Shown: one piece after another, positions 45,816 through 61,489 of the stretch | How positions within the stretch are numbered: position 1 is the stretch's first letter | Layout: every line of letters starts with the position of its first letter | Source: Gracilaria domingensis | Lineage: Eukaryota > Rhodophyta > Florideophyceae > Gracilariales > Gracilariaceae | Direction: 5' to 3' | Length of the DNA stretch: 64,000 bases | Assembly (NCBI GenBank): GCA_022539475.1 | Contig: VCMS01000030.1 | Span: forward strand, 62,001-126,000 | Translations under genes and position numbers: made by a program | Notes under the pieces: model-generated | Told to the model about the DNA's origin: nothing | The model's database searches: none | Seen by the model: only the letters and a program-made list of their open reading frames with translations

Positions 45816-46831
<1,016 letters not shown>

Positions 46832-47959
46832 ATGCCGAGAAAGGCGGGCGGAAGGCGTCGCAAGCGGCGCACGCACAAGTTGGACACGCCCGGGTCGCCG
46901 TCGATTCCGCGCAGTTTTGTGTTCAGGCGCGGCCATGTTCCGGGCGGCGTGCGCGATTTGGTCGCGTGCTTGCGCGCCGCGCTGATGCCCCACACCGCGC
47001 GTCGGCTCAAGGAGAGGCGCATGAACGGTATTCGCGACTACGTTTCTGTGGCCACGCAGATTGGAGTGACGCACTTTTGGATTCTGTCCGCCACCGCCAC
47101 TTCGCCGTACTTGCGGGTGGCAAGAGTGCCGCAGGGGCCCACGCTGACGTTTCGAATCGTCGAGTACTCGCTTTCGGCTGACGTCAGAGCGACGCAACGC
47201 CGGCCGGTTGCGCTGGAGGACGCGCACTTTGAACAGCCGCCGCTGCTGGTGCTCAACAACTTTACGCACGACAGCACCGAATGCAAGATCATGGCCGAGA
47301 CGTTTCGGCACTCTTTTCCATCGATAGACGTTGTGAACACGCGGCTGGCGTCTTTAAAAAGAGTGCTGCTGGTGCATAGAGATGTGCAAAGCGGGAATGT
47401 TTATATTCGGCACTACGCGCTCAGGGTGCAGCAGGCGGGTCTGTCCAAGGCGGTGCGCAAGATGGTGAACAAGCGACGCATCCCAAAGATGAACAACCTC
47501 ACCGACGTGTCCGAGCTGATGGACGGCGCGCCGGGCGTGTTCAGCTCCGACTCGGAAATGGAGGAGAACGGCGAGGAGACGGTGCGGCTCGCGCAGCAGG
47601 TGCGCAAGATGGGCAAAGGAACCAACAGCAAGATCAAATTGGTGGAGGTGGGACCGCGTCTGCAGCTGCAGCTAGTGAAAATTCAAGGCGGTCTGTGCGA
47701 CGGCGCCGTGCTGTACCACCGGTTCGTGAGCAAGAGCAAGGAGGAGGCCGAGCGCGACGAAGAGAGAATACGCGGCAGGAAGGACTTGAAACGAAAGCGG
47801 CGCGAGGAGCAGGAGGCGAACGTGAGGCGGAAACAGGAGAAGAAACGCGCCAAGAAGGAGCGGCACCGCAAGAGTGTGCAGGCGATGGAGGCGGCGCGCG
47901 CGCTCGACGACGGCAACGAAGCGGACGACGAGGGCGACGGCAGCGACGACGATGTGTAA
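46832..47959 (+). CDS. PPAN: Brix-domain ribosome biogenesis factor PPAN/SSF1
   Basis: Start at ATG 46832 (MPRKAGGRRRKRRTH), which matches the basic SSF1 N-terminus; the frame is open further upstream only because of GC bias and would run antisense through ARF1. The product is 375 aa. The Brix domain has PRSFVFRRGHVPGGVRDLV, RLKERRMNGIRDYVSVA, GVTHFWILSATATSPYLRVA, GPTLTFRIVEYSL and, near its end, RLQLQLVKIQGG. The tail is a Lys/Arg/Glu helix followed by an acidic end. SSF1/PPAN acts in ITS2 processing of the pre-60S particle, the same pathway as NOC3 at the window start. Confidence 0.95.
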   Translation: MPRKAGGRRRKRRTHKLDTPGSPSIPRSFVFRRGHVPGGVRDLVACLRAALMPHTARRLKERRMNGIRDYVSVATQIGVTHFWILSATATSPYLRVARVPQGPTLTFRIVEYSLSADVRATQRRPVALEDAHFEQPPLLVLNNFTHDSTECKIMAETFRHSFPSIDVVNTRLASLKRVLLVHRDVQSGNVYIRHYALRVQQAGLSKAVRKMVNKRRIPKMNNLTDVSELMDGAPGVFSSDSEMEENGEETVRLAQQVRKMGKGTNSKIKLVEVGPRLQLQLVKIQGGLCDGAVLYHRFVSKSKEEAERDEERIRGRKDLKRKRREEQEANVRRKQEKKRAKKERHRKSVQAMEAARALDDGNEADDEGDGSDDDV

Positions 47960-48079
47960 GGTTCTTTTATTGTTATTAGCACCAGTGCAAGATTCTAGAC
48001 ATGACATGTAAACGGCAAAAGCAAACGGGGGCGGGGAGGGAGAGGGAGGAGGGGAGTCGGGGGGAAGCTCTGCTGAGCG

Positions 48080-48691
48080 TCATTGCGGTTGCGGTGGGTT
48101 GGACGCTTGGTGCAAGGCGGACTGCGGGAAGGAGGCGGCAGGCGCAGACAGGCGGTACGACGGGTTGCGGGAGAGCGAGCCGTCGACCGAGCGCAAGCTG
48201 AGCGCCGGCGACGAGGTGGGCGTGAGCGCGCCGGGCGTGGTGGAGCGCGACAGGCGCTGCACCTTCCGCTCCAGCTCGTGCTTCTCGCTGCGGAGCGCGT
48301 CGAGCTCCTTGTTGAGGCGGTTGACAATGTACTCGTTCTCCTCCTCGGCGGCGGCGATGATGCGGTGCTTCTGGCGCTGCAGCTCCTCCAGGCGCTGGCT
48401 GAGCGAGTTGGTGACGAACTCGGAGTCGGTCTCGGACGCGCGCGCAATCTGCTCCTTCTCGTGCTTGAGCTCGGACAGGCGCTTCATGAGCTTGTTGGAG
48501 ATCATCTCCTCCTCCTCCTCCACGCGGATCTGGTTGAGCGTGCTCTCGCGGCGCAGCGCGAGCACGTGCTCCTCGGCCGCCTGGCGGCGGTGCTTCTCGC
48601 GCGCCAGCTCCAGCTTGAGCGCGGACAGCTGGCGGCGCAGCTGCCCGATCTCGCCGGGGGCGCGCTCGTCGTGCGCGGCGTCGTCGCTCAT
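48080..48691 (-). CDS. Coiled-coil protein resembling CCDC6 (DUF2046-like)
   Basis: A 203-aa protein that is one long coiled coil (residues about 15-145) with a Ser/Thr/Pro/Ala-rich tail. Three consecutive units share the pattern E-(E/N)-E-(F/Y)-(I/V)-x-N-x-L-x-x-x-L-x-x-L-x-x-(E/Q)-K: EEMISNKLMKRLSELKHEK, SEFVTNSLSQRLEELQRQK and NEYIVNRLNKELDALRSEK. The same periodic signature marks animal CCDC6/H4. After it comes RLSRSTTPGALTPTSSP, also reminiscent of CCDC6. The function in algae is unknown. It is convergent with PPAN (120 nt) and divergent from ADSL. Confidence 0.75.
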   Translation of the reverse strand: MSDDAAHDERAPGEIGQLRRQLSALKLELAREKHRRQAAEEHVLALRRESTLNQIRVEEEEEMISNKLMKRLSELKHEKEQIARASETDSEFVTNSLSQRLEELQRQKHRIIAAAEEENEYIVNRLNKELDALRSEKHELERKVQRLSRSTTPGALTPTSSPALSLRSVDGSLSRNPSYRLSAPAASFPQSALHQASNPPQPQ

Positions 48692-49192
48692 CGTGGCGGC
48701 GGGGCGGGGCGGGGCGGGGCGGGGTTCGGTGGCGGCGGGCGGCGGCGGGCGGCGCGCGCTGACGGCGGGCGGCAGCGCTGGCGGGCGGCAAGCGCGCGGC
48801 GTTTTAAGCGACGCGTTGGGCGACCGCTGACATGTGCCATGTCCACCGCGGCACCGCGCGCCACCGCGTGCAGCTGTTTTTTGGGGGCGCCACGCGCGCC
48901 AGCCAGAGCGCCAAAAAAAGATGCGCGCGCGCAGCGCGATCCCGCCGCCCGCCCCCTACGCTTGTATCTATCTACGCACCTCGGCGCGCACCCAACGGCG
49001 CGCACCCAAGTTGGGTGACCCACCGCCGGCCGCCGCTCCCCGCCGCCGCCGCTCCCCGCCGCCGCCGCTGCCGCCGCCGCCGATCGCTGCGCGCTCCCCG
49101 CATGTCGCCGGCTGCGTTTGCCGCCGCCCCCTTCGCCGCCGCCCCCTTCGCCGCCGCCCCCTTCGCCGCCGCCCCCGTCGCCGCCGCCCCCG

Positions 49193-49224
<32 letters not shown>

Positions 49225-49305
49225 CCGCCGCGCGCCCTCGCAGCAGCGCGCGTCCCCCGCCGCGCGCGCCGCGTACGCAGCACAGCGCGCGCGCGCCCCA
49301 TCGCC
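48692..49305. promoter_or_regulatory. Divergent GC-rich spacer CCDC6-like/ADSL with CCGCC repeats
   Basis: 614 nt. It contains (GGGGC)n near 48700-48725 and a 15-nt tandem repeat GCCGCCCCCTTC at about 49125-49200. The latter could be read as an Ala/Pro N-terminal extension of ADSL (from ATG 49102), but is more likely leader sequence. Confidence 0.45.
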
Positions 49306-50799
49306 ATGGCGGCGCCGTCCGCCAACGGCGCGCCGCCGCCCGAGAGCGAGAGCGAGCGCGAGCTCAACTACGTCTCGCCGCTGTCCACGCGCTACGCGTC
49401 CAAGCCCATGCGCGAGAACTTTGCCGACGTGACGCGCTTCCGGCTGTGGCGCAAGCTGTGGATCGCGCTCGCCGACGCGCAGCGCCAGCTCGGGCTGCCC
49501 ATCTCGCAGCGCCAGCTGGACGCGCTGCGCGCCGCGCCCGACGTGGACGTGCGGCTGGCCGCGCGCTACGAGGCGCAGCTGCGCCACGACGTGATGGCGC
49601 ACGTGCACGCGCTGGGCGACCAGGTGCCGGAGGCGCGCGCCATCATCCACCTGGGCGCCACGTCGTGCTTTGTGACCGACAACTCGGAGATTGTTCAGAT
49701 GTGCGACGCGCTGGACATGATCATCGCCAGCGTGTGGCACGTGGTGTCCAACCTGTCGCGCTTCGCCATGCAGTACCGCCACATGCCGACGCTGGCGTTC
49801 ACGCACCTGCAGCCGGCGCAGCCGACGACGGTGGGCAAGCGCGCGGCGCTGTGGCTGCAGGACTTTTTGTTTGACGCGCACAACCTGGAGCACGTGCGGC
49901 GCTCGGTCAAGCTGCGCGGCGTCAAGGGCACCACCGGCACGCAGGCGTCGTTCCTGGCGCTGTTTGACGGCGACCACGACAAGGTGGAGCAGCTGGAGCG
50001 GCTGGTGACGCGCGCCATGGGCTTTGAGCACGCGTGGGCGCTGACGGGGCAGACGTACAGCCGCAAGCAGGACTTTTTGGTGCTGAGCGCGCTGGCGGGC
50101 GTCGGGCAGAGCGCGGCCAAGATGGGCAACGACATCCGGCTGCTGCAGCACATGAAGGAGCTGGAGGAGCCGTTTGGCGCGCAGCAGATCGGCTCGAGCG
50201 CGATGGCGTACAAGCGCAACCCGATGCGCTGCGAGCGCATCAACGCGCTGGCGCGCTTCCTGCAGACGCTGGTGCTGAACCCGGCCGAGACGGCCAGCAC
50301 GCAGTGGCTGGAGCGCACGCTGGACGACTCGGCCAACCGGCGGCTGGCGACGTCCGAGGCGTTTCTGACGTGCGACGCGATCGCGCAGCTGGCGCTCAAC
50401 GTGACGGACGGGCTGGTGGTGTACCCGCGCATGGTGGCCAAGCACGTGGCGGAGGAGCTGCCGTTCATGGCCACCGAGAGCATCCTGATGGCGGCGGTGC
50501 AGGCCGGCGGCGACCGGCAGACGCTGCACGAGGCGATCCGGCAGCACGCGATGGCGGCGGCGCGGCGCGTCAAGCAGCACGGGCTGGGCAACGACCTGCT
50601 GCAGCGCATCGAGGCGGACGAGCGCTTTGGCGCGGTGCGCGCGCGGCTGCGCGAGCTGTGCGACGGCGCGGCGTTTGTGGGGCGCGCGCCGCAGCAGGTG
50701 GAGCGCTTTGTGGCGGCGCATGTGGCGCCCGAGCTGGCGGCGCGCGAGCAGCGGCTGGCGCTGGCGCAGCGCGCGCCAAAGGGCGACGTGCGCGTGTAG
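49306..50799 (+). CDS. ADSL: Adenylosuccinate lyase
   Basis: Start placed at ATG 49306 (MAAPSANGAPPPESESE), which gives 497 aa, close to the animal enzyme (about 484). An in-frame ATG at 49102 would add 68 Ala/Pro/Arg residues from a microsatellite and could be a leader or transit peptide. The fumarase/aspartase fold shows YVSPLSTRYAS, LRHDVMAHVHALGD, IHLGATSCFVTDN, FTHLQPAQPTTVGKR, GVKGTTGTQASF and the signature loop QIGSSAMAYKRNPM, then LDDSANRR. It cleaves SAICAR and adenylosuccinate in purine synthesis. The signature has Ala where most eukaryotic forms have Pro (SSAMPYKRNP). Almost every codon ends in G or C. Confidence 0.96.
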   Translation: MAAPSANGAPPPESESERELNYVSPLSTRYASKPMRENFADVTRFRLWRKLWIALADAQRQLGLPISQRQLDALRAAPDVDVRLAARYEAQLRHDVMAHVHALGDQVPEARAIIHLGATSCFVTDNSEIVQMCDALDMIIASVWHVVSNLSRFAMQYRHMPTLAFTHLQPAQPTTVGKRAALWLQDFLFDAHNLEHVRRSVKLRGVKGTTGTQASFLALFDGDHDKVEQLERLVTRAMGFEHAWALTGQTYSRKQDFLVLSALAGVGQSAAKMGNDIRLLQHMKELEEPFGAQQIGSSAMAYKRNPMRCERINALARFLQTLVLNPAETASTQWLERTLDDSANRRLATSEAFLTCDAIAQLALNVTDGLVVYPRMVAKHVAEELPFMATESILMAAVQAGGDRQTLHEAIRQHAMAAARRVKQHGLGNDLLQRIEADERFGAVRARLRELCDGAAFVGRAPQQVERFVAAHVAPELAAREQRLALAQRAPKGDVRV

Positions 50800-51342
50800 C
50801 TGCGGCTCGGCAAGTGTTGTGTTTTGCCACGAGCTGGTAAAAGGGCGAATTCGTTTTTTTAAGGCACAAGCGTGAGCTCAATCATGAGAGAGGCAGTGAG
50901 TGAGTGAGGTGAATGCAAGATATGCTCTCTGTTGACACTGTATGATGGCGCGCTGTATGACGATTTTGTTGACGCAACTTGCAACGGTAGAGTTACTGAC
51001 GCTGTGCACTGCGGCAGGGCGTGTCCTTATCTCTTTTTTTTTTTTTTTGCGCCTCTGCCGCGAGATGGGCGCTGTATGATGGCGCGATACACGCGCTGTA
51101 TTACAGGGTTTTGAGAAGATGCACGCGCTCATCAGCATCAGCATGGGAGCTCATAATAATACCGCGCGTTGGTTGGACGCAGCGAATGCTCCTGGCGAGG
51201 AAGAACAACTTTGAGACTCTTTCAACTGGTGTGCAAGTACGGAACAAGAAGCAACGAACAACGAATTGGAGGCTTTATGCAACACACACAAAAAAAAAAA
51301 AAAAACAAAAGAAAAAGCAACAAAGCAAAAATGTTGTGACAC
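50800..51342. other. Convergent spacer ADSL/MYB with direct repeats and homopolymers
   Basis: 543 nt of A/T-richer sequence inside the GC-rich block. CTGTATGATGGCGCG occurs at 50938-50952 and again at 51072-51086. There is a T16-type run near 51033-51048 and an A-run near 51290-51304. No gene is seen. Confidence 0.6.
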
Positions 51343-51620
51343 TCACAGCTCCATGTCGGAGAACGACGCCAGCGCCGCGTCGCCGTCGGCCAGCGGCCCC
51401 AGGTCCTCCAGCTCGTCCGTCTCGCCGCCGCGCTTGCGCCGCGCGTCGCGCGCCAGCCCCGCCTCCAGCGCGCGCTCCATCTCCATCGCGTCCTCGCGCC
51501 CCTCCGTCGCCGTGCCAATGTAGTGCAGGTACGGGTCGGGCGCCGCCGCGCCGCCCGCGCCCGCGCCCGCGCCCGCGCCCGATGCCGCGCCCACAGTCGC
51601 AGCAGCGTGCGGGTGGTGGT

Positions 51621-51652
<32 letters not shown>

Positions 51653-52308
51653 CCGGCGCCGGCAGCGGTGGCGGCGCTGCACGCGCTGGAGCGCTTGAGC
51701 AGCTGGTCGTCGGCGGCGGCGGCGGCGGCGGCGGCGTGCTCGCGCGCGGCGCGCAGCGCGGCGCGCCGCCGCGCGTCGCGCTGAAAGTGGCTCTGCGACG
51801 CGGACAGCGCGTGCACGATGGAGGCGTCGATGGCGGACACGTCGGTGACGGACTTGCTGGCGAGCTTGATGGTCTGGTCGGCGGTGATGGTGACGATGGT
51901 GCACTTGTTGCCCACGGCGAGCTCGACGACGGGGCGCATGCCGGGCGGCATGTGGATGGGCTGCCCCGCCTCCATGCACTGGCGCGCCAGCCGCGCCATC
52001 TTCATCTGGAATTTCTGCGCGTGCGTGCGTACCTGCTTGGGCGTGCGCGTCTCCACGTAGTTGGAGATGGCCACGTATGCCTTCTCGCCGTACTCGGCCA
52101 CCGCCTCCAGGAAGCGCTCGTGCTCGTGCTCGGTCCAGTAGCGCGTCTGGCCCGCGCGCGGCGTGGTGCACTTGGCCACCAGCTGCGCCTTGTCCTTCTT
52201 GGTGCACGCCGTGTTCACCAGCGGCAGCGGCGGCGGCCGGCGCCGCGCGCGCGCGCTGCTGGTGGCGCTGCTGCGCTGCTTGGCGCCGGCGGCGCCGCCG
52301 GCGGCACC

Positions 52309-52360
<52 letters not shown>

Positions 52361-52445
52361 GAGCTGTGGTTGAGGCTGTGGCTGTGGCTGTGGCTGTGGC
52401 TGTGGCTGTGGCTGTGGCTGTGGCTGTTGTGGTTGTGGGTGTGGG

Positions 52446-52476
<31 letters not shown>

Positions 52477-52872
52477 GCTGCTGGCGTTGTTTTGATTGGG
52501 GGTGGGGGTGGGGGTGGGGGTGGGGGAGCAGAAGAGTAGACCGATTTCGCGCTTGGAGCATTGGGAGGCTTGGTTGGTTTCAGAGCAGAGAACAGATTTG
52601 GTTTCAAAAGTAGAGGGGTAGGCGCGCGCGCTCAGCAGCGGCGTGCTGTGCGACGAGCCGTGCTCGCTGGGGTTGGGCGTGCGCAGCTGCGGGCTGTGCG
52701 CGATCGTCGACGGCGACGACGGCGCGCTGCGCGGCACGCTGCGCGCGCGCAATGCGTCGGCGGCGGTGGCGGCGGCGGCGTGCTGCTCGGTGGCGGCGGC
52801 AGCGGCGGCGACGGCGGCAGCGGCGGCGGCGGCGGCGGCGCGGCGCGTCATGATGGGCGAGCACGACGACGA

Positions 52873-52908
<36 letters not shown>

Positions 52909-52941
52909 CTGCGGCGATGGCGACGGCGTCGGCGACGGCGT

Positions 52942-52980
<39 letters not shown>

Positions 52981-53076
52981 AATTGAGGCGCGCAGGAGCT
53001 GCAGCTCTCGTTCGAGGTGCGCAATGCGCTTGCGAGCGTCGCGCAACTGCTGTGCGGTGTGCGCCGACTCGAGCAT
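51343..53076 (-). CDS. SHAQKYF-type single-MYB transcription factor with extreme low-complexity arms
   Basis: Start placed at ATG 53076, which opens a short leucine-zipper-like helix (MLESAHTAQQLRDARKRIAH then LERELQLL); sequence upstream is open only through GC bias. The product is 577 aa. The N-terminal half is microsatellite-encoded: (SP)n, (TP)n, poly-Pro, poly-Ala, poly-Asn, (HS)n and (SN)n. The MYB repeat is at about residues 320-370: RYWTEHEHERFLEAVAEYG, then VETRTPKQVRTHAQKFQMKM, a THAQKFQ variant of SHAQKYF. The C-terminal part has Ala/Gly/Asp runs and ends acidic. Plant relatives are circadian or sugar-responsive DNA-binding proteins; targets here are unknown. Confidence 0.85.
52315..52520 (-). 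repeat. Coding trinucleotide and hexanucleotide microsatellites in the MYB gene
   Basis: On the plus strand, (TGCTGT)n at about 52311-52357, (GGCTGT)n at about 52376-52426, (TTG)n at about 52446-52476 and (GGGGGT)n at about 52500-52525. They encode Ser-Asn, His-Ser, poly-Asn and Thr-Pro stretches respectively. Units are nearly perfect, implying recent slippage. Confidence 0.9.
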
Positions 53077-53679
53077 GTGAGGCACGGCGGGGGGGGGGTA
53101 CACTCGGACGCGATGCGGCGCGCGGGAGCGGGCGGGGCGGGCGGGGGGGAGGGGAGGGGGGAGAAGGGGGGAGGGGCGTCGGCGGTGCGTCGCGGACGGA
53201 GGCGGGCGGCGGGCGGCGGGCGGCGGGGGTGCGCGAGAGAGAGCGCGCGCGCGGGGGAGCAGCCGCGGGGGGGCGGCGTTTTGGGGGGGGCGCGGCGCGG
53301 CGGCGCGGCGCGACACGCGCGCCTTTTTTGGGCGTGGGGGGGGGGGGGCGGGGCGCGCAGAAAACGCGCGCGCGGCGCGTGCGGCGCGCGCGCGCGTGGC
53401 GCGAGGTGCGCCGCGAGGTGCACGCCTGCAACGGCGCGGCGCGCGCGGCGCGGCGCGCGCGCGCCGGCCGCGGCCGCTTTATAGACGCGCCGCGCGCCGC
53501 GGCTAATAAAGAGCCGCGCGCGGCGCGGCGGCGCGCGCGCTTGCGTGCACAGCCGTCAGTGAGCGCCGGCTGCGCGCGCGCTTGTATGTGTCCCTTTTGC
53601 GCGCGCGCGCGCGCGGCGGCCGTTGCGCCAAGTGCGCGCCAACCCTCAAAAAGGCGCGCCGCGCGCGCCGCGCGCAGGC

Positions 53680-53716
<37 letters not shown>

Positions 53717-53785
53717 GCGCGCCACTCAGCGCGCGCCGCCGCCGCGCCGCGTGGCCACGCGCACAGCGCGCCCACGCGCCGCGCG

Positions 53786-53818
<33 letters not shown>

Positions 53819-53980
53819 GCGCGCGCCGCCGCGCCGCCGCGCCGAGCCGGGGAGGAGGCGCGCTCGCGCGCGCGCGCGCGCGCGCGCGCGAGAAGCGGCC
53901 GCCGTCGCGGCGCGGCGCGGCGTGCGCGCGCGCAAGCGCGAAGCGCGCGCGCGCACGCCGCGCGGCGCGCCGGCGGCGCG
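53077..53980. other. Extremely GC-rich spacer (MYB / inositol phosphate kinase)
   Basis: 904 nt with G-runs (53085-53350), CG alternation and a GCC triplet array (53685-53720). Long stop-free frames cross it in several phases but encode only Arg/Ala/Pro/Gly. It should contain the MYB promoter and the 3' end of the kinase gene. AATAAAG near 53503 is the only AT-rich island. Confidence 0.45.
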
Positions 53981-54565
53981 CTACGGCTCGCGCAGCAGCT
54001 GCGCCAGCAGCGCAATGAGGTAGTCCACGCCCTTGAGGTAGCCGTCGTCGCGCTGCCCGTGCGAGCGCACCGTGTGCGCAAAGTCAATCATGCGCACGTC
54101 CACGGCGCCGCGCCGCGCCGCCGCCGACACGCTGCCCTCGTACACCAGCAGCAGCGACGACGAGTAGAAGAAAAAGTGCGTCTGCGCCTGCAGCGAGCGC
54201 CGCAGCGCCTGCAGCCGCGCCAGCAGCGCCGCCGCGCACTCGGTGCGCACGCGCAGCGCGTCGTCGAAGAACCAGCGCAGCTGCGGCAGCAGGTCCGCCT
54301 CGCGCAGCGTGCGCCCGTGGTACTTGTCGCGCCACTCGAACACGCCGTCGTTGCTGCACGCGCTGCCGGCCGCGCGCTTGAACGACTGCATGCCGGTGAA
54401 GCGGATGCCGCAGCGCGCCGACGTGGTGGCGTTGGCCTTGGCAATGTGCCGCCGCCGCTTCTCCTCCGTCGCGTCGTCGTCGTAGTGGCGCGTCCCGATC
54501 TTGCAGTCCATCACGCACGGCAGCTCAAACTGCGCGTTGATGTCCTCCAGCTTGATGCTGCAGCT

Positions 54566-54603
<38 letters not shown>

Positions 54604-55013
54604 CGCTGCCGCGCTCGCCGCCCGCCAGCTTGGCGCGCCGCGCCCTCATCTGCGCCGCCCACGGCGACAGCGCCACGTGCACCGTGCCGTCCGCGCTGCG
54701 CCAGCGCACCCCGCCGCCCGCGCGCGCGCCCCTCGCCGCCGCCGCGGCGGCCGCGGCGGCGGCCGCGCGCGCCGCCGCCGCCGCCGCCGCCGCCGCGCCG
54801 TCCACGCGCCCGTAGAAGCGCGGCGTGTTGCGCCGAATCCAGCGCATGTCGGCCGGCAGCTGCTCGCTGTTGATGTACTCGTAGAAGGCGCACTCCTTGA
54901 GCAGCAGCGGCTTGAGAATGCGCCCCGACGCGCTCAGCGTCAGCTGCCCGTGCCCGCCCACCTGGTGCGGGTACGCCGCCGCCTCTGCCGCCGCCGCCGC
55001 GGTCGCCGCCGCG

Positions 55014-55062
<49 letters not shown>

Positions 55063-55090
55063 GCCGCTGCTGCTCGCCCGCCTCGTCCAT
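53981..55090 (-). CDS. Inositol polyphosphate kinase (IPMK/IP6K family)
   Basis: Start at ATG 55090 (MDEAGEQQRR); a GTG-initiated extension is not needed. The product is 369 aa. The family fingerprint PxxxDxKxG appears as PCVMDCKIGTRHYDDDA near residue 190, followed by GIRFTGMQSF, the hydrophobic strand SSSLLLVYEG and the metal-binding VRMIDFAHT near 333, with a C-terminal GYLKGVDYLIALLAQL. Such kinases phosphorylate IP3-IP5 or IP6 to higher inositol (pyro)phosphates. Three homopolymer insertions decorate the fold: Gln15 near the N-terminus, two poly-Ala runs around 110-130, and poly-Gly just before the catalytic motif. Substrate class (IPMK versus IP6K) cannot be decided. Confidence 0.9.
55018..55063 (-). 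repeat. CAG/CTG trinucleotide repeat (poly-Gln)
   Basis: About fifteen consecutive CTG triplets on the plus strand, read as CAG (Gln) near the N-terminus of the inositol phosphate kinase. Confidence 0.9.
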
Positions 55091-55329
55091 GCCGGCGGTC
55101 GTGCGCACTCGCCCGAGCCGCTGACAGCGCGTTTTGCCGCGCCGCGCAAAAAAAGCAAAACGCGCGCGCCGCCGCCGCCAAACGAGCCGATTCGCGCGCG
55201 CCGATTCCGAATCTTGGCCGCGCGCGCGCGCCGCCCCTTGGCCGCGCGCTGCCGCTGGCGTTGCGCGCCTCAGCGCGCGTCGCCGCCACTGTTATCCGTA
55301 AGGATACCTTCGTAGCACCAGCTTCGTAC
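55091..55329. promoter_or_regulatory. Divergent spacer inositol kinase/RING protein
   Basis: 239 nt between divergent start codons, GC-rich, with no obvious TATA box or CCAAT box. Both transcription units presumably start inside it. Confidence 0.4.
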
Positions 55330-55555
55330 ATGCCGCAGCAACCGACGCCGCCCGGCACGCCGCCGGCGTCCCTTCCCGCCGCGGATGCGCGCGCGGACCG
55401 CGCGGCCGCCGCCGTGCGGCGCGCGGCCGCCGCGTGCGCGGCGCTGCGCGCGTCGACGCTGTGCGCGGCGTGCCGCGCGCGCCCGCTGCACGCGCGCTCG
55501 TTCCGCTCGCTCGCGTGCGCGCACGCCTTCTGCGCGCGCTGCGCCGCGGCGGCGC

Positions 55556-55604
<49 letters not shown>

Positions 55605-55740
55605 GGCGCGCGCGGGCGAGTGCCCGGTGCGCGGGTGCGGGCTGCAGCTGCGGCCGGCCGACGTGGTGGAGGACGTGGGGCTGGGCGAGTTTCGCGCCGC
55701 GTGCTACCAGCTGCTGCTGTGGGCGCGGCGCCACGGCTGA
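55330..55740 (+). CDS. Small RING-finger-like protein with poly-Gly insertion
   Basis: Start at ATG 55330 (MPQQPTPPGTPPASLP); upstream in-frame codons lack ATG. The product is 136 aa. Cysteines and histidine fit a RING: LCAAC, then LACAHAFCARC, then CPVRGC. The order C-x2-C ... C-x-H-x2-C-x2-C ... C-x4-C leaves zinc ligands for two sites. A run of 16 Gly sits between the second and third ligand groups, encoded by (GGC)n at about 55560-55603. RING proteins are usually E3 ubiquitin ligases, but this short protein could be a partner or subunit. It is divergently paired with the inositol kinase. Coding status is supported mainly by the Cys/His spacing. Confidence 0.6.
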
Positions 55741-56456
55741 GAGGCGGCGCGGCTGCGTCTGTTGCTGCTCGTTGTGTGCGCCGCCAACGGGACGCCGCAG
55801 GCGCTTTTGGCCGTGCGATCGTGGCGGCGTCGGGGTGAGGTGCACGCCTGCCAGCGCGCGCGCACGGCGTGCACAGCGCTTTGCAATCTCGTGAGTGTGC
55901 AACACAAAAACAGTGTGGTAAAGAGTATGCTTACTATTGATGCAAGCGTTTTGATTTTGATGGCGCGATCAAGCAGCTTGTTCTGCCATCGCATTTGATG
56001 AAGCTGACTTGCAAGCTCCCTAGTGAGTCTCTTCTACATAGTATGCGCTCAACAGGAGCAGCCATGTGATGGTTCGCAAGCCGCCACCTGCACAAAAGAA
56101 AAAGGACGGCTTGTGTTGGTTTGATTTGCGCTTGCGGTGCAAGCAACGGAGCTACTAGTGAGCTGTTGAAGACGCGCGTTTGCGCAGCGCAAATGCGACA
56201 AAATTCAATTTTGCATTTTACTGCCAATATTATTACATTGGGCGCCCCATCAACGTGCCACAGCCAATCACCGCGCGCCAAGTGCGAGCAGAACCCCCCC
56301 CCCCCCCGTTGTGCCATCGACGCCGCCACGGCGCCGCCACTGCTGTGCTCTTCGCGCGCGCCGCCAATCTCCATCGCCTGGTCGCCGTCCGCAACCCACG
56401 CAGCCCCGCGCCCCGCCCGCTCCCGCAGATCCTGAAAAACGCCACCGCTCTCTTCC
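55741..56456. promoter_or_regulatory. Spacer RING/COX10 with CCAAT box, palindrome and C-run
   Basis: 716 nt of lower GC than its neighbours. It contains TTTGCGCAGCGCAAA at about 56188-56202, CCAAT at about 56265, and a run of about 14 C near 56290-56305. No gene is seen. Confidence 0.45.
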
Positions 56457-57557
56457 ATGGCGATGCTCAACGGCCGCATCTCGCACACAAAACACCTCAT
56501 TCGCGACTTGCTCAAGCTCTCCAAGTACCGCCTCAGTGCGTTGGTCGCCTTCACCGCCGGCGTCGGCTACGTCACGCGCGCTGATCCCGCCGATCCAGAT
56601 CCAGTCGCCGCTGCCAACGCCTCCTGCAACTATTACCGCCAGCTGGCCGCCACCACCGCGGGAACGTGGCTCGCGGCAGCGTGCGCCAACACGCTCAACC
56701 AGATGTATGAGATTCGATCCGACGCGCTCATGGCGCGCACGCGCCTTCGACCGCTGCCGGCCGGCCGCGTCGGCCTGGCGCACGCTGCGTGCTTCGCGCT
56801 CGCCACCGGCGCCTCCGGCATCGCCCTGCTGGCCGCGGAGACCAACAGCACCGCCGCGGGTCTGGCCGCGGCCAACATTGCGCTGTACAGCGCCGTGTAC
56901 ACCCCGCTCAAACCAGTCTCAACCGTCAACACCTGGGTCGGCGCCGTCGTCGGCGCGCTTCCCCCGGTGCACGGATGGGCCGCCGCAAGCGCCGGAAAGC
57001 TGCGCGGCGAGCGCGAGCGCGGCGCGTGCGCCCTAGCCTCGTTGCTGTTTCTGTGGCAGATTCCGCACTTCCACGCGCTGGCCGTCGTTGCGCGCCGCGA
57101 TTACGCGGCGGGCGGCTTGAAAATGCTCGCCGTCACCAACCCGCCCGCGAACGCGAGCTGCGCCAAGTGGACTGCGGCAGCCATGCTTCCGGTTGGCGCC
57201 TTGTTCACGTGGAGCGGCGTCGCAAGTGCGCCGTTTGCGTGCGAATCGGCCCTGCTTGGGTGGTGGCTGTATCGTGGCGCGCTCAATATGGTCACGGAAC
57301 CGACGTCGACCGTCGCAGCGAGGCAGCTGTTCCGCTCCTCGCTATGGTATCTGCCGATATCCATGTCTCTCTTACTTGTGCACCAGGTGCCGTACGCGTC
57401 AACGCTCGCACACACGCAGACGCCGCCGCCAGTTTCGAACGCCACGGAAATTCGTTTGCAACAGCCGTGGGAGATTATGGCACCGTTTCCGTTTCTACCA
57501 GTCCCGTGTGGAGTACCAGCTGTAGTTTTGGAAACGCGAGATAGAAACCTGCCTTGA
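56457..57557 (+). CDS. COX10: Protoheme IX farnesyltransferase (heme O synthase)
   Basis: A 366-aa UbiA-type polytopic membrane enzyme that converts heme B to heme O for cytochrome c oxidase in the mitochondrial inner membrane. The first prenyl-diphosphate/Mg motif is present: NTLNQMYEIRSDALMARTR followed by RPLPAGR. The second region appears as YTPLKPVSTVNTWVGAVVGA and the conserved loop FLWQIPHFHALAVVARRDY. Eight or so hydrophobic segments are visible. The C-terminal about 50 residues are an extra Pro-rich tail. There is no long presequence; the N-terminus is MAMLNGRISHTKHLIRDL. GC content falls from GC-rich to balanced within the last third of the gene. Confidence 0.95.
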   Translation: MAMLNGRISHTKHLIRDLLKLSKYRLSALVAFTAGVGYVTRADPADPDPVAAANASCNYYRQLAATTAGTWLAAACANTLNQMYEIRSDALMARTRLRPLPAGRVGLAHAACFALATGASGIALLAAETNSTAAGLAAANIALYSAVYTPLKPVSTVNTWVGAVVGALPPVHGWAAASAGKLRGERERGACALASLLFLWQIPHFHALAVVARRDYAAGGLKMLAVTNPPANASCAKWTAAAMLPVGALFTWSGVASAPFACESALLGWWLYRGALNMVTEPTSTVAARQLFRSSLWYLPISMSLLLVHQVPYASTLAHTQTPPPVSNATEIRLQQPWEIMAPFPFLPVPCGVPAVVLETRDRNLP

Positions 57558-57730: not shown

Positions 57731-60231
57731 TCACCTCGCACCCCTGTCCGTTTCGAGGTCCGATAATTGCGAAATGCGCGGGGCGGGGAAACATTCTCTG
57801 CGAGAGCGATCAACGCTCCTTCTCGTTTTCCCAGGCAGAAAGTGTTCAGGATTCAAAATGAACATCTCTGTGTTGCGATCCACCTTCTCCCGGAAGCTCT
57901 TTAGAAACTGCAGTTCGGCTTGAATCTTTTCTAAATGATAATCCTCGCCGTTTCGTTGCCTCTTGGTGTTCCCTTCATTGCTTGATCTGAACTTTGTGGG
58001 TTGCCTCGGCTCGATCTCGTTTTCGTCGGGCGCTGCAGTGGGTGGTGGTGATATACGTTTCTTCGATTGCCGGCGTTTCTCAGTGATCTCTGATTCATCC
58101 ATTTTCTGGATAGGTTGCTGTTCTTCTTCGACATCCTTGGCTTCGGTTTCTTTAGAAGCAGTCATTTTCGCATCATCGGCCTTTTGCTCAATTTCCATCT
58201 GATCATCGTCGTCGCCTTTTTCTTCGTCAGCGTCAATTGGCTTTGCATCTTTTGGCAGGGGTTTCTCCGGTTCCTTCTCCGGTTCCATCTCTGGTTCCTT
58301 TTCTGGTTCCTTTTCTGGTTCCTTTTCTGGTTCCTTTTCTGGTTCCTTTTCTGGTCTGGTTCCTTCTCTGGTTCCTTCTCTGGTTCCCTCTCTCGTTCCT
58401 TCTCTGGTTCCTTCTCTGGTTCCTTCTCTGGTTCCTTCTCTCGTTCCTTCTCTGAGTCCTTCATCGGCTCATCCTCTGGCTCGTTCTCTTGCTGCTCCTC
58501 AGTGGTTTTCTCCGTCTGAGATGGCTTAATTTGGTCGTCGTCCCCTTTAAACTTGCCCGCTGTTTGAACATCTGAGTCAGCAGGTCGCTGAGTTTTTACC
58601 ATGGGAGAGGAGGGTTGATGCTCTTCCTCATCCCCAGCTTCGCCTAATTTGGAGTCTTTCGCAGGGGCGTCGGTAGCAGTTTTTTCAGCGTCCTGTGCCT
58701 TAGCTCCAGATGCAGCGTTGTCCTTGTCAAGGTCTTTCGGCTGTTCCTCTTCCTTCTCCTGTTGCTCCTCTGGAGCCGTATCTTTGTCGATAGGAGCGCT
58801 GCTGCCATCTTTCTCAGGTTGCTTTTCAATGCCCTCCTCAGGCTGGCTTTTGTCGGAACTGACCTCCTTGGTGGTCGAGCGCGTGGCTCTTGTGATTGCC
58901 ATTGTGGTCCTAGAGGGGTGCGAGTTTGATGTGGACTTCGACGGATCCCTGCTCTTAACGCGCCGTCCGGTGCTCGGCCCGGTTATAGCCGATTTCTTTT
59001 GATTATTGACGTTTTTTGGCGCGAACTGTAATTCTGCTTCTCCCGCCCTTTTCGAGCTTTCGGCAACATTCGTGTTGGGCGCAATGTCGGCATTCGAGTC
59101 CTCCGCTTCTCGCTCTTTGTTGGACCGCACTTGTTCGTCTGCACCGTCGATGGCTGCCATCGTCATGATATCAAATGCTGAACCCAGCTGTAGGTCCCCC
59201 AGGTCTTGGTCCTCCGAAGATTCGGATGCGTCGTGTGCGCTGTCGGCATTGTCTTCATCGAACACAAAGTGTTGCGTGAGCGGGCGCTCTTCCTCAGTAA
59301 ATACGTCATGAGTGCTATGTTCCTTAGATTCCTGTGATTGACTTTTATCAGGACCATACTGCAACCCGTTCATGCCATCACAGCCGACCGTATTTCCCTC
59401 CTCCGGTTCATTACCGTGGGGCTCAAGAGTGGAGGCTGCACCGTCCGCTCCCGCAATTCCGACACTATTCGATCTGGCTGCACTTTGCGGAGAGGCCACA
59501 CTGGTTGTATTCGCGTCGAGAATTGGCAGCGGGCCTGGATCGAAAAGCTCAAGGTCTCTAGGATCAATATCGAGTTCAGCATTCTCGTCGTCATTTGCGT
59601 GTGGTAGACCGTTCGCTATTCCGTTCGTCAGCGTCTCATCTTGCGCGCAAGTGAGACCGAATGCGTCGCTGTCGACGAGAAGGTTCCGTGGGGGAAGCGG
59701 GGGACATTCGTTCTCCAACTTCTCAAAGACTGCGACGAAATGGGCGTCACTCTGAGGCTCGTTTCCCTTTTCAGGTAGAGCGTTGAACGTTGCCAGCTGA
59801 CGGCCAATGTTCTCTCGAAGCGCGGTGACTACTTCCGGGTCCTTATCGACGCTGAGCGATATACCAGGCGGTCTTTGATGTCTTCTATCTGAGAACACTC
59901 GCACGTCTCTGAGAAGCAGCGTGGCGGATGGTGGGGAGGTGGTCATGTCGGTGAGAACTACGACTTGAACAGGAGCCAAGATATAGCCTTCAAGGTTTCG
60001 AGTGGTTACGCCTGTTTGTTCCTCATCAGCGTCTATCGTCGATGCTACGGACTGCGAAAGCACGACGCTGACGCTGTGCGCGCCGTCAAAGCAGTGAAGG
60101 GTTCGACGAGAAGTCACTGGCGTGGTTGCCTGCAGATAGGAGGCGTGGAGCGACAGAAGTTGAGGGGGGTCGGATAAAGCGCCGATTAAGTAGTTCTTCA
60201 ACCATGGGGAGCTACCCAGCAGTAATGGCAT
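57731..60231 (-). CDS. Acidic protein with N-terminal TPP1/Est3-like OB fold; frameshifted inside an EPEK repeat
   Basis: From ATG 60231 the first frame runs to a stop at 58162 (689 aa); a second frame carries on to 57731. The two frames meet in a tandem repeat (EPEK units, 12 nt each) near 58351-58360, where one unit is 7 nt short. Both sides encode EPEK in their own frame, so this was one gene; no GT donor exists nearby to splice around it. Residues about 5-135 look like the OB fold of the telomere protein TPP1/ACD: SPWLKNYLIGAL, then LHCFDGAHSVSVVLSQ, NLEGYILAPVQVVVL and ATLLLRDVRVF. The middle is a long acidic, Ser/Glu-rich disordered region. The second frame ends with a hydrophobic helix (EKIQAELQFLKSFREKV) that may be a partner-binding motif. 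TPP1 homology is a hypothesis; another OB-fold protein is the alternative. Confidence 0.6.
58288..58465 (-). repeat. 12-bp tandem repeat encoding EPEK, with one truncated unit
   Basis: On the plus strand, CTGGTTCCTTTT and CTGGTTCCTTCT units in tandem. At 58351-58355 a unit is reduced to CTGGT, seven bases short, and this shifts the reading frame of the overlapping gene. Confidence 0.9.
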
Positions 60232-60946
60232 AACTGTGCAAAGGCGCAGAAAATGTAAATGAGAATTGGCGGGTAGGACGCGGTTTACACGGACGCAATA
60301 GCGAGGTTGGACAACTTCACAATGTGGAGATTGTTTCGTAATGGGCGGAGCGGGCCGATGTGGGGGTAACAGCGCATTTGAGATGCTTTCATATCATCAC
60401 TGATCTGTGGCTGTCAGGCTATCGGGCGTGACTGTGCGATTGTGTCAGCGAGGAGGAAAGCCCGTTGTGCAGAGTTGGGCACAGAGAAAGAAGGCGATGA
60501 CGAAGACAAGGTACGAAGATGAAGTGGCACGACGCAACAACAGCGAAATGGTGCTGGCCTATGCGTATTTGCTCAGATCGTCCGTAATAGTGGCAGTTTA
60601 GGACGAGCCTTTTTGAAGTCTCCCGCCAAAATTTCGATTCATTGCGACACGCGGCGCCCTTTTTGGGCGAATTTGGTGGAAGATATGCAAACGTGGACAC
60701 ACATGTGCTACGTGTGACCTTCGCTCGCATTGGATGATCTTCGTTTGTCGAGTGATGCTCTTCAGAAAAATATCTGTCGGTCGTCAGCATCTTTCTTCAC
60801 CACAAGTTGCGTTGTATTGCAGCACGAATCACAGACTTCTACGCCAGTCTCAGATGCCTGTTAGAGCGTGCGCGCAGCTGTTGGCGTCGCCATTCTCCTC
60901 TGTTCCGAACGGCTGAATCGAGTAGCTCTCATATCTCTTGCGCATC
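60232..60946. promoter_or_regulatory. Divergent spacer TPP1-like/plastid protein
   Basis: 715 nt between divergent starts. ATTGG occurs near 60729 (GCATTGGATG). A 64-codon frame at 60407-60601 has no supporting feature. I see no RNA gene. Confidence 0.4.
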
Positions 60947-61489
60947 ATGGCTGCATTCGCCGCGGCCACACCGCTGCAACTAGCGCAGCAGACTCGCTCT
61001 AATTGCTCAACATGCCCTCGCGCAACACCTGCAATGGGGCCGTGGAAGAAGGGCGAGAAGGATGAGGCTTTCCGCCAGCAGCAAGAAATCCTTGCTCGTC
61101 GTCGTGATGCAAAGCGCAACAAAAAGTACTTTGAGGAGGTTCAAGAGAGACGGGATACCGTGGAGGAATACTTCGACAATCGCATGCTCAAGGTCAACGA
61201 AGGGGAGGACCCTATTCACGAGTGGCGTCGCATGAAGGATAACGGCTTTATTGACGAAGATGTCGGTTACACGGAGGAGGAAGAGAGCGGAATTCCAATT
61301 CCCATGGCAAGCTTTGGTATTCCCAAGTACGATAGAGGGGCACGCTTTGACCTTAAGCTGCCTCACGTTGAGCATGGCTACGCTGACCCAGACGCTGATG
61401 TCATGGGAAGGGCTGCAAATGCCTTCAAGAACGTGTTCGGTTTCGGGAGGAAAAAGTCTGATTCTGATGGAAAGGAGCCGAGCGAATGA
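60947..61489 (+). CDS. Small conserved-looking plastid-type protein, function unknown
   Basis: Start at ATG 60947; the frame upstream offers only TTG. The product is 180 aa. The N-terminus MAAFAAATPLQLAQQTRSNC has the early Phe, Ala/Thr/Ser richness and lack of acids typical of red-algal plastid transit peptides. The mature part begins with a charged helix (KGEKDEAFRQQQEILARRRD). A Gly/Pro-rich motif GIPIPMASFGIPKYDRGARF follows, then FDLKLPHVEHGYADPDADVM, and the tail is basic (FGFGRKKSD). The motif density suggests a conserved family shared with other photosynthetic eukaryotes, but I cannot name it. It has no membrane segment or catalytic signature. Confidence 0.75.
   Translation: MAAFAAATPLQLAQQTRSNCSTCPRATPAMGPWKKGEKDEAFRQQQEILARRRDAKRNKKYFEEVQERRDTVEEYFDNRMLKVNEGEDPIHEWRRMKDNGFIDEDVGYTEEEESGIPIPMASFGIPKYDRGARFDLKLPHVEHGYADPDADVMGRAANAFKNVFGFGRKKSDSDGKEPSE

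Follow-up and report, generated by a model that had tools for sequence, protein, structure and literature searches.

The acidic protein encoded on the minus strand at 57731–60231 of the window (the whole stretch of 64,000 nucleotides that was analysed) raises the question of whether a red alga possesses a telomere adaptor of the TPP1/ACD type. The first-pass annotation had placed a TPP1-like OB fold at 59820–60231, an interval that corresponds to residues 1–137 of the minus-strand ORF, and the motif residues that it quoted are present, in the order given, in the translation of this ATG-started frame (DGAHSVSVVLS at residues 49–59, LEGYILAPVQV at residues 80–90 and LLLRDVRVF at residues 105–113). 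The features of the locus are collected in Table 1. We consider it fairly probable that the gene encodes a divergent TPP1-type adaptor (ACD/Tpz1; Est3 superfamily) that would act with an algal POT1 and telomerase; for this reading we infer the homology, the OB fold, the contact with TERT, the binding of POT1 and the role in telomerase recruitment. The narrower proposal, that the protein is a true red-algal TPP1 orthologue paired with the algal POT1 and telomerase, we regard as evenly balanced.

Table 1. Features of the candidate adaptor gene and its neighbours (positions are those of the window)
Feature	Position	Strand	Basis or remark
ORF, N-terminal domain and long acidic low-complexity region	58162..60231	-	689 codons, ATG start; codon bias
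N-terminal domain, residues 1-149, proposed TPP1-type OB fold	59785..60231	-	phmmer against PDB, BLASTP pair
PW, residues 9-10, start of predicted N-terminal helix	60202..60207	-	translation, alignment
DGAHSV, residues 49-54	60070..60087	-	aligned with DGTHSV (human TPP1) and DSSHQI (Est3)
DADEE, residues 67-71, acidic loop where human TPP1 has the TEL-patch loop	60019..60033	-	position mapping, local alignment
Predicted C-terminal domain helix, residues 132-150	59782..59838	-	single-sequence models, low confidence; alignment
12-bp tandem repeat coding for EPEK, contains the frame break	58263..58489	-	tandem repeat call, sequence
Acidic coding sequence continued in a second frame	57734..58350	-	open frame; coding score
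UbiA-family prenyltransferase, neighbour	56436-57554		family match
Inositol polyphosphate kinase (IPK), neighbour	53984-55108		
DUF6823 protein, divergently oriented neighbour	60938-61486		E 1.9e-39; family of unknown function

The resemblance of the domain to known structures was examined in a set of 177,635 distinct PDB sequences at E ≤ 10. Residues 1–177 gave only three matches, all of them to the OB domain of human TPP1 (best 2i46, E 0.34). With residues 1–149, phmmer returned four, the same human domain at E 0.26, 0.27 and 0.47 followed by an ACT-domain protein at E 1.7, and the human TPP1 (ACD) entries 2i46, 7tre and 5i2y were the only matches with E < 1. A near-reversed control reached a best E of 1.1, so that the PDB-wide values of 0.26–0.34 lie above the noise of the reversed control but are not significant alone, and the three human matches, being near-identical chains, amount to one observation. 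Pairwise comparison gave lower values. The Smith-Waterman score against the human TPP1 OB domain was 72, which none of 5000 shuffles reached (fitted p ~9e-6), in a local alignment that begins at PW and extends to the C-terminal helix; the BLASTP comparison of residues 1–159 with the same domain gave E 2e-5, with 26% identity over 151 columns. Since the choice of TPP1 was itself made by inspecting the algal sequence, the pairwise p has to be corrected for every family that might have been proposed instead, and the PDB-wide E of ~0.3 is the fair unbiased figure.

The human domain was also compared with 465 open frames of at least 80 codons, drawn from the window and from sampled loci of at least 1 kb (L001 was excluded, and overlapping loci were counted twice). 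The algal ORF ranked first both in phmmer --max (E 0.013, the next frame at 5.1) and in the Smith-Waterman scan (72, the next at 51); the runner-up in the latter was the frame of the alga's TERT, a match that we read as chance. When human TPP1 was compared with the whole frames by blastp with composition correction, 42 columns of the ORF near DGAHSV were aligned at E 20, and the ORF ranked under eight other rows. A search of the alga's own genome with the human OB domain did not return the locus; the sole match (C216:152189-152317) was discarded as noise, at E 2.7 over 43 residues with an internal stop. The algal domain itself, searched against its own genome at E ≤ 0.001, matched only itself. 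The PW start lies near the N-terminus in both proteins, at residue 9 in the alga and at residue 11 of the 458-residue human chain. The end-to-end cover of the alignment, the matching PW start and the presence of TERT and POT1 in the genome (see below) add weight to the TPP1 reading.

Features common to the algal protein and human TPP1 are the PW start, a DG.HSV strand, an acidic loop after the second strand, and R.PG followed by a C-terminal helix. The algal tail, unlike that of human TPP1, is acidic and repetitive, and the Pfam profile PF10341 (TPP1/ACD), which in control searches matched human TPP1 (1.4e-32) and Est3 (1.5e-49), did not match the algal protein at E ≤ 10. HMMER filters can drop weak matches. 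The same profile found nothing in the whole genome, a weak negative, given that no control was detected there either. The TPP1 reading put forward in the first-pass annotation is partly supported, as a remote match that covers the full domain and heads the PDB hits, but its PDB-wide E values fall short of threshold and it receives no support from PF10341.

The proposed link with yeast Est3 fared worse. The PW and the second-strand D..H positions of Est3 (PDB 9swn chain C, 2m9v) do align with those of the alga, and PW is invariant in the three-sequence alignment of the alga, human TPP1 and Est3, extended to PWI in the latter two; however, Est3 has 181 residues and lacks a long acidic tail, and its pairwise similarity to the algal protein is not significant. 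The pairwise score was at shuffle level (1265 of 5000 shuffles reached it), and an Est3 HMM gave the alga −0.8 bits, a value that 206 of 1452 scored shuffles equalled or exceeded. A profile made from human TPP1 and Est3 scored the domain at 12.4 bits, which none of 1592 scored shuffles (2000 made) reached, yet human TPP1 alone gave 11.8 bits (none of 1612 scored shuffles), so that Est3 adds only the step to 12.4. Adding the alga to human TPP1 recovered Est3 at 0.7 bits, compared with 1.8 for human TPP1 alone, and 16 of 200 shuffled controls equalled it. Among the columns in which the alga agrees with human TPP1, those where human TPP1 also agrees with Est3 were not over-represented (7/27 versus 30/109, p 0.65). 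Alignment of the alga with the human–Est3 alignment by hhalign covered only 38 columns, with a probability of 5.8% and E 0.0065, and a profile of all three sequences, with a control run alongside, found no further TPP1-type chain in the PDB. With the score at shuffle level and the shared columns at that p value, the Est3 link finds no direct support. Relatives of the domain were sought elsewhere as well, and none was confirmed among 26 pattern matches in viral contigs or among 104 in prokaryote genomes.

These results bear on the main rival explanation, a chance resemblance in which an unrelated domain of an acidic protein happens to share the PW, the DG.HSV strand and a similar spacing. The PDB-wide E, set beside that of the near-reversed control, the negative PF10341 search and the absence of support from Est3 are what such a coincidence would produce; a pairwise match that covers the whole domain and beats every one of the shuffles is less easily obtained in this way, as is a PDB search in which the top three matches belong to one family and the ACT-domain protein is the sole other at E ≤ 10. 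We judge chance resemblance unlikely, and a divergent TPP1-type adaptor remains our preferred reading.

If the domain is of the TPP1 type, its counterpart of the human TEL patch can be sought by position. The local alignment maps E168 to D69, E169 to E70, K170 to E71 and E171 to Q72, an assignment that, for a loop at 26% identity, could be off by one or two residues. The mapped loop residues are thus D, E, E and Q, and the loop remains acidic (DADEE). At the other positions F172 corresponds to T, R180 to Y, L183 to A, L212 to V and E215 to D; R180, L183, L212 and E215 are taken here to be members of the patch. The residues at 171, 172, 180 and 183 differ in kind, E171, F172, R180 and L183 all being replaced, and most identities of the patch are not kept. 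Excerpts of a study of human POT1-TPP1 state that E-to-D, but not E-to-Q, substitutions at 168, 169 and 171 sustain stimulation (PMC10055720). To the extent of those excerpts, D69 of the alga fits the tolerated E-to-D changes of the human loop (PMC10055720), and by this alignment charge would be kept at two of the three positions 168, 169 and 171.

Two single-sequence AlphaFold models of the domain had mean pLDDT values of 34 and 41. Both predict, at low confidence, helices near the two termini and between them a strand pair around DGAHSV followed by further strands, and a helix-strands-helix order is expected of a TPP1-type OB domain. The predicted C-terminal helix covers residues 132–150 in the first model and 132–143 (H125-136 of the model) in the second, again at low confidence, and residues 132–150 align with the last part of the human OB domain. 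Fold searches with these low-pLDDT models gave noise matches. The predicted strand order, from models of this confidence, would also suit other small beta-barrels, and OB proteins diverge quickly; the domain might accordingly belong to another OB-fold or OB-like protein (a CST or RPA-type subunit, for example) that resembles TPP1 by fold and is not its orthologue. We hold this to be improbable, since neither the Pfam nor the PDB sequence search brought up an OB family other than TPP1 at E ≤ 10. The partner genes are present in this genome, but the Pfam profile gave no match and the OB fold and the binding segments are putative; the protein is accordingly not filed as a certain member of the TPP1 family, even with a TPP1-type domain as the favoured interpretation.

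The first-pass annotation had treated 57731–60231 as a single ORF. The frame opened at 60231 is in fact closed by a stop at 58162, and the acidic coding sequence is taken up again in a different frame. The phase of the 12-bp repeat is shifted at ~58351–58360 by an extra CCAG, a 4-base duplication, past which EPEK coding goes on in the second frame, whose open stretch comprises 245 codons (57734–58468). Codon usage was scored with seven other long open frames in the 64-kb window as the training set. By this score the ORF frame ranked first of the six in the domain and in the three additional ORF segments tested; in the segment 57734–58261 the second frame ranked first and contained no stop. The second frame encodes the remaining acidic tail and a terminal Leu-rich stretch; the hydrophobic C-terminal segment pointed out earlier as a helix lies here, at about YHLEKIQAELQFLKSFREKV; the helix is only putative, as is any role of this segment in binding TIN2 or POT1. 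Since what shifts the phase is a 4-base unit within the repeat, an indel is a simpler explanation than an intron, which we disfavour, and the frame break is most simply an assembly or allelic indel. Should the break reflect an error of assembly or a variant allele, the continued coding sequence in the second frame is the probable true C-terminus, and the span of 57731–60231 is probably right for the gene, though the frame as given is broken. That the 4-base duplication marks a decaying pseudogene of a TPP1-type protein is very improbable, given that coding bias persists on both sides of the break, that the tested segments carry no stop in the coding frame, and that phase slips in short tandem repeats are common assembly or allelic indels.

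A TPP1/ACD adaptor would be expected beside its partners, and genes for both TERT and POT1 were found in the same genome (assembly of 77.9 Mb in 680 contigs). The TERT gene (C22, L005 166-3591) has an open frame of 1142 codons that matches the profiles of the RNA-binding domain (RBD; E 1.7e-26), the reverse transcriptase (RT) and the C-terminal extension; the TEN profile of the TERT N-terminus gave no match in this frame. TERT appears to be intronless over the span from the RBD through the RT to the C-terminal extension, with ~400 residues before the RBD. The POT1 homologue (C182, L003 130-2112) matches the OB1 profile at E 2.5e-10, and all five of its PDB matches at E ≤ 1 are the alpha subunit of a ciliate telomere-binding protein, presumably that of Oxytricha. 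The C-terminal part of POT1 (177 residues) had no PDB match at E ≤ 10; it carries CxxC-x10-CxxC, a pattern that we find reminiscent of the zinc site in human POT1, within the third OB domain that binds TPP1. Searches of the genome with the TRF, TINF2_N and Stn1 profiles found nothing and are uninformative on absence, with no control detected for TRF and a single bacterial match below the cut-off as the sole control for TINF2_N. The assembly contains no exact match to (TTAGGG)4 or (TTTAGGG)3, and no telomere-like array with a period of 5–11 bases was seen in the first 150 positions of contigs C1–C18 of the 680.

One could envisage that the N-terminal OB-type domain docks on TERT through the acidic DADEE loop and the short segment before PW (NOB), that a segment of the long acidic tail holds POT1, and that POT1, bound to the 3' overhang, would thereby present the adaptor to telomerase. 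According to excerpts of the published work, human, Tetrahymena and budding-yeast telomerases contact an OB protein, namely TPP1, p50 or Est3 (PMC10055720, PMC7619062), and fission yeast Tpz1, ciliate p50 and TEBP-beta are reported relatives of TPP1 (PMC4936895, PMC7619062). None of Tpz1, p50 and TEBP-beta was among the PDB matches of the algal domain at E ≤ 10. For plants, the portions of two papers available to us discuss TRB proteins and POT1a at the telomerase-recruitment step (PMC7658794, PMC8745574), and among the matches listed by a search confined to the open literature, and represented there by partial texts, TPP1 was not reported from red algae or from any other Archaeplastida.

Should the protein be a true TPP1 orthologue, the POT1-TPP1 recruitment module would extend beyond animals, fungi and ciliates and would predate the split of Archaeplastida, and plants that lack a recognised module would have lost it or carry it in disguised form. 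Confirmation would make the telomere adaptor older and more widespread than the known animal, fungal and ciliate forms suggest. A red-algal TPP1 would also allow the idea that TPP1-POT1-TERT recruitment is ancestral to eukaryotes to be tested on an actual protein, and could serve as a query in the search for unrecognised TPP1s of green algae and plants.

Phycobilisome-linker matches in the assembly number 14; contig C680 carries four, three of which share one 878-codon frame. Judged from these sequence matches, the organism is a phycobilisome-bearing alga whose plastid genome lies within the assembly, and with a eukaryotic nuclear genome of this size we take it for a red alga. The UbiA-family neighbour of the candidate gene is presumably COX10-like, and we know of no telomere link for it, for the IPK or for the DUF6823 protein. 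The region 46000–56500 of the window forms a G+C-rich island (60–77% GC in 2-kb steps, compared with ~50% around it) in which Ala, Gln, Arg, Ser or Pro codons form long runs, open in several frames, and the IPK gene bears poly-Gln and poly-Ala tracts.
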